32,579 nucleotides of DNA, from the IMG/VR virus record IMGVR_UViG_3300034060_000488, positions 1-32,579 of that record. One strand, written 5' to 3'. Both the position numbers and the translations under genes were made by a program. Positions 4,173-20,250 of the stretch are shown here, in pieces. Numbering within the stretch: the first letter of the stretch is position 1; each line of letters starts with the position of its first letter. This DNA is from a virus. The notes beneath the pieces are model-generated. The model ran no database searches and was not told the DNA's origin. It saw only the letters and a list, made by a program, of their open reading frames with translations.

Positions 4173-4505
4173 ATGGCAACCAATTATAAATATTCACAAA
4201 TTCAAGGAACAGCAGCGGTTGGTACATACGCAACTTTGTACACAACACCTGCTGCAACTCAAGCAGTAATTTCAAGTATTGTCATAACAAATCAATCTTC
4301 ATCTGCAATAACTGTTAGAATTGGATTAGATACTACAGCAGGTACTCCAGGAGCAAGCGAATTCCTTGTTTATGATGCTGCAATCGCAGGTAATGATACA
4401 GTAGCCCTAACACTTGGTATTACAATGCCTGCAGCAAACTTTATCCGTGTATCATCTTCCGCTAACACTTGTAACTTTAGTGCATTTGTTTCGGAGATTT
4501 CCTGA
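4173..4505 (+). CDS. Small beta-rich fibre-cluster protein
   Basis: The 110-residue product reads as a single beta-sandwich: ATLYTTPAATQAVISSIVITNQ, then AITVRIGLDT, then ANFIRVSSSANTCNFSAFVSEI. Proteins of this type occur next to glycine-rich fibre genes in tailed phages and are presumed virion components. It has a strong AAAGGAG ribosome binding site 5 nt before ATG and its own promoter. The stop overlaps the start of the glycine-rich gene by one base (TGATG), so the two products are probably made together. Confidence 0.7.
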   Translation: MATNYKYSQIQGTAAVGTYATLYTTPAATQAVISSIVITNQSSSAITVRIGLDTTAGTPGASEFLVYDAAIAGNDTVALTLGITMPAANFIRVSSSANTCNFSAFVSEIS

Positions 4506-5218
4506 TGGCTATCAATAGTTTTAAGCAGGCAGGTTTAGCAAATACAAGTAGTATTATTAATATTACAGTAAGCGATGTTCTTTCTACAACAGGAAGCCCG
4601 ACAATAACGAATCCCACTGGCTTTCGCTCATATGCCTTTACTGGATCAGGAAGCATAACGCTCTCTAGACCTGGTTACATAAATTATTTAATTATCGCTG
4701 GTGGTGGCGGAGGCGGCGGAAATTCGGGTGTAAGTGCTGGTGGAGGTGGAGCAGGAGGGATGCTTGAGAAAACTCAGATGTTTTTACCAGCTGGAACCCA
4801 TACAATTACTGTTGGTGCAGGTGGAACAAGCGGGGCAACTGTTACTTGTGGGACTATTTCTAAGATTGGAGATTATTACTTTACAATAGGTGGCGGTCAC
4901 GGTGGTGGCGATTATCCTGCTGCTTACGATGCTGCAGGAGACGGAGGATCTGGAGGTTCGGGTGGACCTGCTGGAGTAACTCTTGACAGTGCACAAGGAA
5001 ATAACGGAGCTGGAGGTTATGGCAATGGCGGTGGAGCAGGAGGAACCCCAACAGGAAGATCCTCTTCGATTACTGGTACGGCGATAACTTATGCTGTCGG
5101 TGGTGGAGCAGGTAATCCAGGAGCAGATAATAATGTGAATCCGAATCGTGGCAATGGCGGTGGAGGAAAAAGATCTGGATCAGCAGGCTTAGTCGTTATT
5201 CAAGTGAGTAATCCATGA
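4505..5218 (+). CDS. Glycine-rich receptor-binding fibre protein
   Basis: The 237-residue protein has an N-terminal beta region (~residues 1-55), then a glycine-rich domain beginning INYLIIAGGGGGGG and continuing through repeated GGxGG stretches to a closing beta strand SAGLVVIQVSNP. This is the layout of the glycine-rich (polyglycine sandwich) domains of phage adhesins that contact the host receptor. It is one copy of a module that appears twice more, in tandem, in the protein encoded at 6043. The gene is translationally coupled to both neighbours (TGATG before, ATGA after). Confidence 0.8.
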   Translation: MAINSFKQAGLANTSSIINITVSDVLSTTGSPTITNPTGFRSYAFTGSGSITLSRPGYINYLIIAGGGGGGGNSGVSAGGGGAGGMLEKTQMFLPAGTHTITVGAGGTSGATVTCGTISKIGDYYFTIGGGHGGGDYPAAYDAAGDGGSGGSGGPAGVTLDSAQGNNGAGGYGNGGGAGGTPTGRSSSITGTAITYAVGGGAGNPGADNNVNPNRGNGGGGKRSGSAGLVVIQVSNP

Positions 5219-5496
5219 AATATTTTGCTGAAATAGACGAAAACAACATTGTGATTAGAGTTATAACAGTTCGTGATGAAGCTTTATTAGAAAAAAAATT
5301 TCCTAAATCAGAAACATGTGGAAAAGAATTTTTAAAAAGTTTAGGTTTTGATGGAACATTTGTTGAGTGTTTTTATGAAGCAGAATTTAGAGAATGCTAC
5401 CCAGGAACAGGGTACTTTTATAATTCAGAAGATGATATTTTTGTAGCACCATTTTTTAATCAAGATAATAATTACGTTGGGTTAGAAAGTATATAA
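5215..5496 (+). CDS. Small 'FVAP' protein, partner of glycine-rich fibre
   Basis: The 93-residue product starts with FAEIDENNIVIRVITV and has the phrase YPGTGYFYNSEDDIFVAP near the end. The gene at 7716 encodes a related protein (ARIEDGIVREVIVV and YAGIGFKYDEELDEFVAP). Both immediately follow a glycine-rich fibre gene. The family is widespread in tailed phages as a small hypothetical protein; its consistent pairing suggests an assembly factor or small tail component. This copy is more diverged and carries Cys residues (CGKEF, VECFYEAEFREC) absent from the other. Confidence 0.75.
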   Translation: MKYFAEIDENNIVIRVITVRDEALLEKKFPKSETCGKEFLKSLGFDGTFVECFYEAEFRECYPGTGYFYNSEDDIFVAPFFNQDNNYVGLESI

Positions 5497-5497
5497 G

Positions 5498-6046
5498 ATG
5501 AAAATATTAGTAACAAGTGCTCCCAGATCTGGAACTCATTTTATAGTTAGGTCTTTAGGTCTCTCGCTGAAAACTCCTGTGGCAATCAGAACTACAATAA
5601 AAAAACTACCAACTGAAGATAGTTGGATAATTGGAACTCATGATTTAAATTTAATTAAAAATTGTCCACCTGATGTTATAAAAATTGGAATACATAGAGA
5701 AATGCTTGGTCACTTGTTGTCATATTTTAATCATCCAAAAAATCCTAATTCAGATGCTTTTATTGATATGGTAAAAAAGTCTAATTTTTTTAATGTGAGA
5801 AAAGCATTTTTAAATCTTAATATACCTTATTTGTCTTACGATAAATTAGCAAAAAAAGAAAGTTCAGAATTAAATAAATTATCAGTAATGTTTAATACTG
5901 AGATGGTAACAGAAAATTATGAAAGCTCGATTTTAGTTTTTGGTTCATCTATGTTCAAATATGGAAATCCTGATAAATGGAAAAGTGTGTTTGATGTAAA
6001 AACTCAAAATATTTTAATTAACATAGAACAGGATAAAACAAAATGA
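5498..6046 (+). CDS. Sulfotransferase-like protein
   Basis: The 182-residue product carries the marks of the PAPS-dependent sulfotransferase fold. A 5'-phosphosulfate-binding loop SAPRSGTHFIVRSL is at residues 7-20. A likely 3'-phosphate pair R67 and S75 sits in IHREMLGHLLSYF, with the Arg/Ser spacing of 8 known from cytosolic sulfotransferases. A late W161-K162 in YGNPDKWKSVF matches the family's GDWKxxF region. It is shorter than most family members (250-300), so it may be a minimal enzyme. It would transfer sulfate from PAPS to an acceptor I cannot identify, perhaps a surface glycan or a fibre. It is noticeably AT-rich, unlike the following gene, and is joined to it by ATGA. Function is predicted, not shown. 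Confidence 0.75.
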   Translation: MKILVTSAPRSGTHFIVRSLGLSLKTPVAIRTTIKKLPTEDSWIIGTHDLNLIKNCPPDVIKIGIHREMLGHLLSYFNHPKNPNSDAFIDMVKKSNFFNVRKAFLNLNIPYLSYDKLAKKESSELNKLSVMFNTEMVTENYESSILVFGSSMFKYGNPDKWKSVFDVKTQNILINIEQDKTK

Positions 6047-7692
6047 CTATCTCTAAACTTTCAACAGCCCAAGGTGCAGGATCAGCGATCCCGACAGCGG
6101 GTCGCTTCGCACAAATCTCTAGTGGTGGTACACGCACTACTTACACAGATGCTGGGATCACTTATGAGGTGAGAACCTTCACCGCATCAGACAGTCTCGT
6201 TGTTTCTAGTTCCGGTGTAGTTGACGTATTAATTATTGGTTCTGGCGGTGGTGGAGGAGGTTCCACAAGTGGTCAAGGTGGTGCAGGTGGCGGTGGTGCT
6301 GGTGGACATGGTTATTTTCCAAACGTTTTTTTGCAGGCTGGATCACTAACAGTAACAATCGGTGGCGGAGGTGCTGGTGGTAGTGGTGCTGGTCTGACTG
6401 GTACAGGTGGCAACGGTGGTGGTTTTGGTAACTTCTTTGGTGTTGGTGGTGGTGCAGGTGGAGGAAGAATACCTGCTGAAGCGGGCCAGTCTGGTGCATC
6501 TGGTGGTGGTGGTTCAGGTGATTTTTCTGGATCAACACGGGCTGGAGGAAAAACATTAGTTTCTCTTATTGGTAATGCTGGTGGTGCAGGTTTCAACGGT
6601 GCAGGTTCTTCCGGCGGGGGTGGCGGAGGTGCTACCGCTAATGGATCAGTTGCAATCACCAACGTTGGTGGTGCTGGTGGTGCTGGTACGGCTAATAGCA
6701 TTACGGGTACTTCTGTAACTCGCGCTGGTGGAGGTGGTGGTGCTGGTGCTACTACTGGTGGTTCTGCTACTGGCGGTGGAGGTTCTGGTGGGAGTGGCAG
6801 TTCTGTTGGTACTGCTGGGACTGCAAATACTGGTGGTGGCGGTGGTGGTGGCGCTCAACTCGCTGGTGGCGCAGGTGGGTCTGGCGTAATTATTGTTCGC
6901 ACAATCATTGCCGGTTCAGCAGCGGGTGCTGCTGCTTCGGGTGGAACGATCACGACTTACACGGGTAATGGTACGAATGGTGTAAACGGTCAGTTGTACC
7001 GTGTCCATTCTTTCACTTCAAGTTCAACGCTAGAAGTCAGTGGCGCAGGGTTTGTGGACTGCCTCGTTGTGTCCGGTGGGGGCGCAAGTGGTTCTGGTGC
7101 TGGTGCTGCTGCGCGTGGCGGTGGCGGTGGTGGTGCAGGTGGTTGCATGAATTACTCAAATATGTTTCTTGCTTCGGGTGCATATACGGTTACTGTTGGC
7201 GCTGGTGGAACGGCTGACGGTTCGACAGTTGCTATTCCCGGTAAGCAGGGCGGTGGCTCACAATTAGGGGCTATTGGTATCTGCGGTGGTGGTGCTGCGG
7301 GTGGAGCGACAACGACTGGTGCAGGTGGCCTTGGTTGGTCAGGTGGATCAGGCGGCGGTGGTGGTGGAGGATCAACAGGATCTGCTACTGGCGGTGTAGG
7401 AACACCCGGAATTGGAAATGCGGGAGCCACGGCAACATCAGGCGCAGGTGGTGGTGGTGGTGGTGCTACTGCTGCTGGTGGAGTACCTACTGCTGGAACC
7501 GGATTGTCTTCGTCAATTACGGGATCATCTGTGACTTATGCTACGGGCGGTGCTGGTGGGGCAACTTCAGGTAACGCTGCTGGTGTAGCCGGTGGTGCGA
7601 ACACTGGTAACGGTGCAAGTGGTGGCGCTGCAAATAGTGGGGCTTCAGCCAATGGTGGCTCCGGTATCGTAATCGTTCGTTACCCAATCTAA
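6043..7692 (+). CDS. Tandem glycine-rich fibre (adhesin) protein
   Basis: The 549-residue protein contains two head-to-tail modules, about residues 1-287 and 288-549. Each begins with a beta-rich lead (YEVRTFTASDSLVVS and YRVHSFTSSSTLEVS), passes into a long glycine-rich part (VDVLIIGSGGGGGG and VDCLVVSGGGASGS), and closes with a similar strand (GSGVIIVRTI and GSGIVIVRYPI). The same module occurs once in the protein at 4505. Such glycine-rich adhesin domains are known host-range determinants. The gene is much richer in G and C than its neighbours, partly because of Gly codons, and may have been acquired by recombination. Opposite-strand Pro-rich frames here are shadows. Confidence 0.8.
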   Translation: MTISKLSTAQGAGSAIPTAGRFAQISSGGTRTTYTDAGITYEVRTFTASDSLVVSSSGVVDVLIIGSGGGGGGSTSGQGGAGGGGAGGHGYFPNVFLQAGSLTVTIGGGGAGGSGAGLTGTGGNGGGFGNFFGVGGGAGGGRIPAEAGQSGASGGGGSGDFSGSTRAGGKTLVSLIGNAGGAGFNGAGSSGGGGGGATANGSVAITNVGGAGGAGTANSITGTSVTRAGGGGGAGATTGGSATGGGGSGGSGSSVGTAGTANTGGGGGGGAQLAGGAGGSGVIIVRTIIAGSAAGAAASGGTITTYTGNGTNGVNGQLYRVHSFTSSSTLEVSGAGFVDCLVVSGGGASGSGAGAAARGGGGGGAGGCMNYSNMFLASGAYTVTVGAGGTADGSTVAIPGKQGGGSQLGAIGICGGGAAGGATTTGAGGLGWSGGSGGGGGGGSTGSATGGVGTPGIGNAGATATSGAGGGGGGATAAGGVPTAGTGLSSSITGSSVTYATGGAGGATSGNAAGVAGGANTGNGASGGAANSGASANGGSGIVIVRYPI

Positions 7693-7715: not shown

Positions 7716-7964
7716 ATGGCACATGCAGCAAGAATAGAAGATGGAATTGTAAGAGAAGTAATCGTTGTACCAGATAATCTAGATGAAACAGAATCTGATG
7801 CAGCAATTGAAGCATTTATCCATTCTATTGGATTGACAGGAAAATGGATTCGTACATCCTATAACTCAAGCATCAGAGGAACCTATGCAGGAATTGGATT
7901 TAAGTATGATGAAGAGCTTGATGAGTTTGTAGCTCCAGTAGTTGAGCAACCTGTTTCTGAGTAA
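7716..7964 (+). CDS. Small 'FVAP' protein, second copy
   Basis: The 82-residue product has an N-terminal strand pair (HAARIEDGIVREVIVV), a central segment SIGLTGKWIRTSYNSSIRGTYAGIG, and the ending YDEELDEFVAP. It is a paralogue of the protein encoded at 5215 and again follows a glycine-rich fibre gene. The central GKWIRTSYN...RGTYAGIG phrase is characteristic of a small protein family widely spread in tailed phages with no assigned function. AAAGGAAA precedes ATG by about 7 nt. A terminator hairpin follows the stop. Confidence 0.78.
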   Translation: MAHAARIEDGIVREVIVVPDNLDETESDAAIEAFIHSIGLTGKWIRTSYNSSIRGTYAGIGFKYDEELDEFVAPVVEQPVSE

Positions 7965-9446: not shown

Positions 9447-11396
9447 ATGACATTTATTGACTCAGATGGATCAATTTTAGATCCATACCGCAACTTTATT
9501 GCAGTTTCACGATACAGCCGTTGGATAGAAAGCAAGGGCAGGAGGGAAACGTGGTCTGAGACAGTAGATCGATACATTGACTTTATGAAAGATCATCTTG
9601 TAAAGAACTATGATTACAAGGAAAATGATATTAAGTTTGCTCAAGTAAAAGAAGCAATCTTGCATCACAAGGTAATGCCTTCCATGAGATCTTTGATGAC
9701 AGCAGGACCAGCACTAGAAAGAGACAACATTGCATCATACAACTGTTCTTTTATTGCTGTTGATTCCTTGAGATCTTTTGATGAAGCCATGTACATTTTG
9801 ATGAATGGAACAGGCGTAGGATTCTCTGTTGAACAGAAGTATGTAAATAATCTTCCTGTGATATCAGAAGAACTTTACCCAACAGGAACAACCATTGTTG
9901 TTGAAGATTCAAAGCTTGGATGGGCAAAGGCATACAAAGAACTTATTGGGCTGTTGGTTACTGGACAAATTCCCAATTGGGATATGTCAAAGGTTCGTCC
10001 TGCAGGAGCAAGACTAAAAACTTTTGGAGGTAGGGCATCAGGTCCAGAACCACTTGCAGATCTTTTTAGGTTTACCGTTGAACAGTTTAAGATAGCCGCA
10101 GGAAGGCGATTAAAGCCTATTGAGGCTCACGACATTATGTGCAAGGTCGGAGAAGTAGTTGTTGTTGGCGGAGTCCGTAGATCTGCCTTAATTTCCCTTT
10201 CCAATTTGGATGATTTTGAAATGGCCAAGGCAAAAAGTGGTCAATGGTGGGAAACAGAAGGTCAAAGAGCACTTGCTAATAACTCAGCGGTATACAACGC
10301 AAAACCAAATACTGCTCAATTTCTTCGTGAGTGGAGAAACCTATATGAATCAAAGTCAGGTGAACGAGGAATCTACAACATGGATTCTGTTCGCAAGCAT
10401 ATAGATAAGTTTGGAAGGCGTGATTCATCAAAGGTTGTTGGTACAAACCCTTGTGGAGAAATTCTTCTAAGGGCTAATGAATTCTGTAACTTAACAGAAG
10501 TAGTAATTGATGCAAGTGATACAGAAGAAACTCTAAAAGATAAGATTAGAATTGCAACAATTCTGGGCACTTGGCAATCAAGTCTAACTAATTTCAAGTA
10601 TATTCGTAAATCTTGGAAAGATAACTGTGAAGAAGAAAGACTTCTTGGTGTATCTCTTACTGGTATTTTTGGAAATCCACTAACAGGAACAAGGCACAAG
10701 GATCTTTCTGCAATGCTTGATAGACTTCGTGAATCATCTATTGAGACTAATAAGGAAGAGGCAGAAGTTCTTGGAATCAATCCTTCTGTTGCTATAACCA
10801 CGGTAAAACCATCAGGAACTGTGTCTCAATTAACAGGTGTTTCAAGTGGAATTCATCCTTGGTATTCTAAGTATTACATTCGTACCGTTCGTGCAGACAA
10901 TAAAGATCCTTTGACGGCATTCCTAAAAGACTTTGATGTTCCTAATGAACCAGACGTAATGAAAGTAGATTCAACTACCGTGTTCTCTTTTCCAATTAAA
11001 GCACCAAAGAATGCGGTAGTAACAGAAGATATTTCTGCTATAGAGCATCTTGAAGTCTGGAAGGTTTACAGGACTCATTGGACAGAACATAATCCATCAG
11101 TTACTATCAACATAAAAGAAGATGAATGGCTAGATGTTGGAGCTTGGGTATTTAAAAACTTTGATTCTATAGGTGGCGTTTCGTTCCTACCAGCATCTGA
11201 ACATTCGTACAAACAAGCGCCATATCAAGAGATTACTGAAGAAGAGTACAAAGAATTGGTAGCAAAAATGCCAAAAAGAATTCCATGGGAATCACTTCCT
11301 TTGTATGAACTAGAAGACAATACCTCTGGATCTCAAGAACTTGCTTGCACAGCGGGATCAGGCTCATGTGAAGTAGTTGACCTCATTTCTGCTTAA
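9447..11396 (+). CDS. nrdJ: Class II (B12-dependent) ribonucleotide reductase
   Basis: The 649-residue enzyme reduces ribonucleotides to deoxyribonucleotides, supplying phage DNA synthesis with precursors; class II enzymes use adenosylcobalamin and need no oxygen. It resembles the monomeric triphosphate reductase of Lactobacillus (739 residues), but is shorter. Key residues are intact. C100 (SYNCSF) and C347 (EFCNL) form the redox pair. C336 and E338 in NPCGEILL are the thiyl and general-base residues. The C-terminal pair C634/C641 (CTAGSGSC) regenerates the enzyme. The PSGTVSQL phosphate-binding loop is at 455-462. The gene sits alone between structural genes with its own promoter, an AGGAAAGG ribosome binding site and a terminator. 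No thioredoxin-like partner is seen here, so host reductant is probably used. Confidence 0.96.
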   Translation: MTFIDSDGSILDPYRNFIAVSRYSRWIESKGRRETWSETVDRYIDFMKDHLVKNYDYKENDIKFAQVKEAILHHKVMPSMRSLMTAGPALERDNIASYNCSFIAVDSLRSFDEAMYILMNGTGVGFSVEQKYVNNLPVISEELYPTGTTIVVEDSKLGWAKAYKELIGLLVTGQIPNWDMSKVRPAGARLKTFGGRASGPEPLADLFRFTVEQFKIAAGRRLKPIEAHDIMCKVGEVVVVGGVRRSALISLSNLDDFEMAKAKSGQWWETEGQRALANNSAVYNAKPNTAQFLREWRNLYESKSGERGIYNMDSVRKHIDKFGRRDSSKVVGTNPCGEILLRANEFCNLTEVVIDASDTEETLKDKIRIATILGTWQSSLTNFKYIRKSWKDNCEEERLLGVSLTGIFGNPLTGTRHKDLSAMLDRLRESSIETNKEEAEVLGINPSVAITTVKPSGTVSQLTGVSSGIHPWYSKYYIRTVRADNKDPLTAFLKDFDVPNEPDVMKVDSTTVFSFPIKAPKNAVVTEDISAIEHLEVWKVYRTHWTEHNPSVTINIKEDEWLDVGAWVFKNFDSIGGVSFLPASEHSYKQAPYQEITEEEYKELVAKMPKRIPWESLPLYELEDNTSGSQELACTAGSGSCEVVDLISA

Positions 11397-19782: not shown

Positions 19783-20250
19783 ATGTCAAACTTTGAAAAA
19801 ATGACTGTTGCTCAGCTTAAAGAATATGCTGAAGAGAATTATATCGATATTTCTCAAGCAAAAACAAAAAGTTCTATCTTGTCAGTATTGTTAAATACAA
19901 ATGCAAAGATTTCTGTTGTTGAACAGGCAGAAGACAATCAAGTTATTGGATCTGAAAAGACTGTAGTGAGAAAAAGAATCCCTATGTCTAATTCAAGACA
20001 AAACGAAAATAATGTAGTTATTGTGGGATCAGCAAATACTTTTAGTAATAAAAAAGATGTTTCATCAGAAAAAAAAGATTCTAGTGAGAAGATTGCCCTT
20101 TATTCTGAAAAGAATATGAATTGGGTTTCGGTAGGAACGGTTAGCAAAGGATATAACATTGTTACGAAGGAGGCAGCCGAAATGTGGCTTACTCGTAAGG
20201 GTGTTCGTAAAACAACCCCTCAAGAGGTAGCAACTCATTACGGCCTATAA
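19783..20250 (+). CDS. Head-associated protein with SAP/Rho-N-like start
   Basis: The 155-residue product begins MTVAQLKEYAEENYIDISQAKTKSSILSVL, a helix-extended-helix start like Rho N-terminal or SAP/HeH domains, which bind nucleic acid. A polar, Lys/Ser/Asn-rich linker (about 55-105) follows, then a compact C-terminal region (ALYSEKNMNWVSVGTVSKGYNIVTKEAAEMWL...PQEVATHYGL). Small proteins with this start often follow the capsid gene in actinobacterial phages. It may link DNA or capsid to the connector. The next gene starts only 3 nt after its stop. Confidence 0.7.
   Translation: MSNFEKMTVAQLKEYAEENYIDISQAKTKSSILSVLLNTNAKISVVEQAEDNQVIGSEKTVVRKRIPMSNSRQNENNVVIVGSANTFSNKKDVSSEKKDSSEKIALYSEKNMNWVSVGTVSKGYNIVTKEAAEMWLTRKGVRKTTPQEVATHYGL

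Follow-up and report, generated by a model that had tools for sequence, protein, structure and literature searches.

We propose that a small gene in the tail-tip region of a long-tailed phage, here called P0001, very probably encodes a PAPS-dependent sulfotransferase that is active or was so recently. The gene (positions 5498–6046, + strand) lies in the 32,579-base virus record IMGVR_UViG_3300034060_000488, positions 1 to 32,579, the whole of which is the window analysed here. Its reading frame runs from an ATG start to a TGA stop and encodes 182 residues, as an earlier note on this DNA had described; the assignment draws on the ORF, an ortholog and a match to a SULT/SOT profile. More tentatively, at a little under even confidence, we regard P0001 as a miniature cytosolic SULT/Sulfotransfer_1-type enzyme whose acceptor most likely sits on a glycine-rich (Gly-rich) adhesin or tail-tip protein. 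The sulfotransferase reading, which the earlier note had reached from a handful of motifs, survived all the tests that we ran and is strengthened by further motifs: T47-H48, Y114 and FKYGNPDKWKSVF.

P0001 is a real gene. A DNA scan with the degenerate pattern M-x-(3 hydrophobics)-x3-PRSGTHF picked out four loci, among them L104 (IMGVR_UViG_3300042291_001586), another metagenomic phage, which encodes a 181-residue ortholog of 57% identity. Nei-Gojobori comparison of the pair gave pN of 0.25, pS of 0.57 and dN/dS of about 0.29, indicating purifying selection. The gene order in L104 is a 110-residue gene, a Gly-rich protein, the ortholog, a double Gly-rich protein and phrog_7759. The ortholog occupies the same slot in a second phage, and both the slot and a four-base overlap with the adhesin gene are conserved. 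Direct searches with P0001 returned no matches among Pfam, PHROGs, NCBIfam or PDB sequences, nor among phage records, viral contigs or genome contigs. The ortholog had no match in the phage records, and a two-sequence profile of the pair had none in the genome contigs, while a DNA scan for the C-terminal motif recovered the L104 ortholog and unrelated proteins, with no further family members. Neither protein reaches the Pfam gathering cut-off for PF00685 (Sulfotransfer_1) or for PF13469 (Sulfotransfer_3).

We compared the two-sequence profile with four cytosolic sulfotransferases (SULT1A1, SULT2A1 and two Arabidopsis SOT sequences, taken from PDB alignments), using column-shuffled profiles as decoys. 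For the whole profile, 1 of 200 decoys scored as well or better. Residues 91–182, which include region IV, carry the strongest evidence, since the C-terminal half played no part in any selection: none of 250 decoys scored as well, and the real score stood 5.9 SD above the decoy mean. This match pairs NIPYLSYDKLAKKESSELNKL with a 21-letter sulfotransferase segment and SSMFKYGNPDKWKSVFDV with SPFMRKGMAGDWKTTFTV. At the other end, residues 1–24, with the PRSGT loop, were equalled by 3/250 decoys. The stretch between them (residues 25–90) was equalled by 60/250 and is not significant alone. By these alignments, similarity to sulfotransferases is statistically supported at both ends of P0001 independently. 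In a local alignment of P0001 with SULT1A1, where 9 of 1000 shuffles scored as well, PRSGT, TH48, R67, S75, YxxYD and region IV all fall in register; the ortholog alone aligned weakly with SULT1A1 (60/1000 shuffles as good).

The individual motifs, all encoded on the + strand, can be placed against the PAP contacts and catalytic histidine of AtSOT18 (PMC5482895). PRSGT (residues 9–13, positions 5522–5536), already recognised in the earlier note and aligned to SULTs by hhalign, is the putative 5'-phosphosulfate-binding loop, which this superfamily carries at the end of the first strand and in which R10, G12 and T13 correspond to AtSOT18 Lys93, Gly95 and Thr96. T47-H48 (5636–5641) holds the putative catalytic histidine, the counterpart of AtSOT18 His155. 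The best local alignment places it on the TH of KTHLP in SULT1A1, and TH is kept in the ortholog, although it falls out of register in the ortholog's own SULT1A1 alignment. R67 and S75 (5696–5722), the putative 3'-phosphate-binding pair, would correspond to AtSOT18 Arg177 and Ser185. The 8-residue spacing that had drawn attention to this pair holds, the order is correct, both residues are invariant in the ortholog, and they align with the R...S of SULT1A1; statistical weight for the stretch in isolation did not follow. Y114 in YLSYDK (5837–5839) is a putative adenine contact (AtSOT18 Tyr243), its surroundings being aligned by hhalign of residues 91–182 with YLFYEDMK of SULT1A1. Finally, FKYGNPDKWKSVF (residues 153–165, 5954–5992) is comparable to RKGxxGDWKxxF of region IV, and K154 would be AtSOT18 Arg313. 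The WK seen earlier near the C-terminus (residues 161–162) lies within this motif. Together the AtSOT18 counterparts are R10, G12, T13, H14, F15, H48, R67, S75, Y114, K154 and G156. The PAP-contact positions that can be mapped are identical or conservative in P0001, with one clear departure, Thr97 to His14. Between P0001 and its ortholog these positions are identical save K/R154, where the ortholog has Arg as in SOT18, and Y/H155, a main-chain contact.

P0001 shares with the cytosolic SULT/SOT enzymes (PF00685; SULT1A1 4gra, SULT2A8 7d1x, AtSOT18 5mek) the order of the 5'-PSB loop, the candidate TH and R-x7-S motifs, YxxYE/D and FxxGxxxxWKxxF, along with conserved or conservative PAP-contact residues. 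However, it has 182 residues against about 285–325, a shortfall of about 100 that counts against the assignment, its loop reads PRSGTH rather than PKSGTT, REM rather than RNP/RNA follows the Arg, and it falls under Pfam detection. The phage sulfotransferases of the PF13469/phrog_27463 type (L017, L108 and L109, with relatives in S-SKS1, S-SRM01 and S-SCSM1, phages known to carry such genes) have the P-loop and R-x7-S in common with P0001 but are 260–300 residues long, belong to another subfamily and lie mostly in other genomic settings; the gene in L017 is comparable in position, between a Gly-rich protein and phrog_7759. Sulfotransferases are also carried by OM43-phage genomes, where their function is unclear according to the authors (PMC10580990). 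Short phage proteins from L002, L105, L106 and L107 (176–178 residues, with marginal PF00685 matches) resemble P0001 in size, PRxGTHF loop and R-x7-S, but have RNP after the strand, lack the region-IV FxxGxPDxWK and are 24–27% identical. In L107, two short sulfotransferase-like genes, with PRSGSNYF and PRCGTHFL, are found near each other on one contig (L107:3499–4050 and 4414–4950).

Structure prediction, which the earlier note had suggested as a check, gave qualified agreement. The model from the two sequences (pLDDT 52) found no sulfotransferase among its structural matches and was unusable. A nine-sequence model, of low confidence (pLDDT 53, pTM 0.50), was searched with Foldseek against 350,542 PDB chains; the top 41 matches were all sulfotransferases, with probabilities up to 0.92 and E-values of at least 0.17. 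This result is partly circular because the alignment held sulfotransferase-like proteins: seven of its rows were short phage proteins selected for PRSGTHF or a close variant of it, Pfam recognises several of these as sulfotransferases, and R67 was out of alignment across the rows. An attempt to force the homolog alignment by means of fragments also put R67 in the wrong place. The closest matches are sulfotransferases rather than the nucleoside kinases that had been named as a finding that would overturn the reading.

P0001 lies within a tail-tip cassette whose genes all read from the + strand and leave little space between them; several share one to four bases with the next. It opens behind a 110-residue phrog_1276 protein (4173–4505; PHROGs), which has a homolog in L104, and continues with Gly-rich protein 1 (4505–5218; Gly_rich_2, PF21722, E of 1e-11) and a small phrog_7759 protein, copy a (5215–5496; PHROGs, E of 1.5e-13). 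Downstream of P0001 follow Gly-rich protein 2, with two Gly_rich_2 stretches (6043–7692; PF21722, E of 3e-13), and phrog_7759 copy b (7716–7964; PHROGs, E of 2.7e-18). P0001 is thus located between two Gly-rich genes, as first noted, with copy a, which had gone unmentioned, intervening. The ATGA stop/start overlap that joins it to the downstream Gly-rich adhesin gene (6043–6046) was confirmed and is kept in L104. Family resemblance suggests that the Gly-rich proteins bind receptors. The phrog_7759 genes are diverged copies, each behind a Gly-rich gene, and form a duplicated cassette. Within the distal Gly-rich domain, window positions 7051–7658 equal L110:7557–8164 over 608 consecutive bases, while elsewhere nearby the two phages are about 45–80% identical. 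This identity suggests that the adhesin tip was recently exchanged, unless it stems from cross-assembly. No RNA families were found near the cassette.

The wider window describes a long-tailed phage, with portal, head protease, capsid and a very long tape-measure gene across 15.5–32.6 kb. For its head protease and its ribonucleotide reductase, the nearest counterparts belong to large Streptomyces phages (about 48% and about 62% identity, respectively), so an actinobacterial host is likely. The ribonucleotide reductase gene (9447–11396) separates the tail-tip genes from the head genes. Between the capsid and head-tail adaptor genes, a small ORF (19783–20250) with an endonuclease VII-like N-terminus is perhaps a homing endonuclease.

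The base composition of P0001 sets it apart to a moderate degree. Its GC content is 27%, against an average of about 39% for the window genes and 32% expected from its residues, thus amino-acid composition explains over half of the deficit. GC3 is 0.159 against 0.274 expected (z of about -3.8). The gene for phrog_7759 copy a leans the same way (z of -2.6) and that for Gly-rich protein 2 the opposite way (z of +4.6). The AT-richness reported earlier is therefore genuine, but its contrast with the next gene was overstated, since that gene is itself GC-atypical. Independent acquisition, which had been read from this contrast, is weakly supported: GC3 is low, yet an ortholog in the same slot implies that P0001 has been resident through considerable divergence. 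We take the composition as a moderate sign of a different history, and it is no proof of recent acquisition.

We surveyed what occupies comparable slots in 86 viral loci, selected through the neighbouring phrog_7759 gene, of which 85 had room upstream. The gene just upstream of phrog_7759 encodes a 2OG-Fe(II) oxygenase in 40/85 rows (30/66 after thinning), three representatives of which match PF13759, and a Gly-rich protein in 26 rows. About half of these loci (L016–L101) thus have the oxygenase directly upstream of the phrog_7759 homolog, and phage DSL-LC04 has an annotated 2OG-Fe(II) oxygenase that overlaps this homolog. These oxygenases are unrelated to P0001 in chemistry and fold, while being comparable in position at the Gly-rich/phrog_7759 cassette. 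One phage, seen in two nearly identical contigs, has a PF13469 sulfotransferase in the slot, with a Gly-rich protein on one side and phrog_7759 on the other. We therefore rejected a sulfotransferase as the rule in this slot, as it was found in one phage among the 86 loci and the oxygenase is the common occupant. On one contig a PF13469 sulfotransferase gene directly precedes a PF13759 oxygenase gene, with phrog_7759 about 10 kb away; this order is seen at L108:10586–11963, behind tail-like structural genes. Putative modifying enzymes thus recur at such cassettes, and sulfotransferases are rare among them.

We infer PAPS use, catalysis, timing and acceptor in the following scheme. The 5'-phosphosulfate of PAPS would be held in the PRSGT loop by R10, T13 and H14, its 3'-phosphate would rest on R67, S75 and K/R154-G156, and the adenine would pack against F15 and Y114. 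H48 would then deprotonate the acceptor hydroxyl, and the sulfuryl group would move to the acceptor. Through the ATGA overlap, P0001 may be made in step with the Gly-rich proteins of the tail tip. The acceptor would most likely be a hydroxyl group of a tail-tip protein, either the Gly-rich adhesin or another, with receptor binding tuned by charge.

The same class of enzyme may instead act on a host surface glycan (capsule, teichoic acid or exopolysaccharide), a serious possibility to which we give appreciably less than even weight. Sulfation late in infection would mask or alter the receptor and so reduce superinfection or the loss of progeny on debris, and the joint production of an adhesin and a receptor change would be logical. 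The sulfotransferase gene of S-SRM01 adjoins glycosyltransferase and nucleotide-sugar genes, and those of L005 and L010 probably lie near glycosyltransferases likewise, as judged only by reading neighbouring ORFs. However, the scan of window proteins recognised no glycosyltransferase or other sugar-modifying gene, and in both phages translation of the enzyme gene is coupled to that of a structural gene. The conserved coupling, the lack of recognised sugar genes and the precedent of the oxygenases place the virion adhesin slightly ahead of the host glycan, thus the context weakly favours the adhesin as acceptor.

A small molecule is a less likely acceptor than either adhesin or glycan. P0001 could nonetheless be an auxiliary metabolic sulfotransferase, acting on small molecules or host proteins, that lodged by chance in an insertion-tolerant tail operon. 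The tail tip is indeed mosaic, with phrog_7759 copy a missing from the corresponding position in L104 and the 608-bp stretch of Gly-rich protein 2 exchanged, and the low GC3 of P0001 would suit such a lodger. We consider this unlikely, as both phages keep the gene in this slot with this overlap although the two copies share only 57% identity. Least probable, and in our view very unlikely, is that P0001 is no working sulfotransferase, being either a P-loop-like protein (kinase-like, structural or an adhesin chaperone) with partly coincidental motifs or a sulfotransferase fold that no longer catalyses and acts as a chaperone for the adhesin: the missing family match, the middle motifs that are not significant by themselves, the His at the Thr97 position and a place beside the adhesin that suits a tail-fibre assembly factor would agree with this, but SULT region IV is matched independently by the C-terminal half, the ortholog has the same residue at the candidate catalytic His and at nearly all PAP-contact positions, and neither kinases nor chaperones lead the structural matches.

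Our preferred reading, a sulfotransferase acting on the adhesin, adds to phage sulfotransferases that are already known; the novelty lies in the minimal family and in where it is located, while the chemistry is likely ordinary. Its proteins are of unusually small size for sulfotransferases, and none of the annotation libraries tested recognises them. As the gene is joined by overlap to an adhesin gene, its likely partner, the candidate acceptors are few and open to test. Should the adhesin be what is sulfated, phages would chemically modify their own receptor-binding proteins; should it be a host glycan, this would be a sulfate-based receptor change. More speculatively, and rather doubtful at present, the tail tip may hold a slot in which different enzymes can replace one another, each modifying the co-translated Gly-rich adhesin after its synthesis, often oxygenases, in a few cases sulfotransferases and here a new minimal family. 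If so, adhesin modification would be a previously unrecognised layer of receptor tuning in phages.
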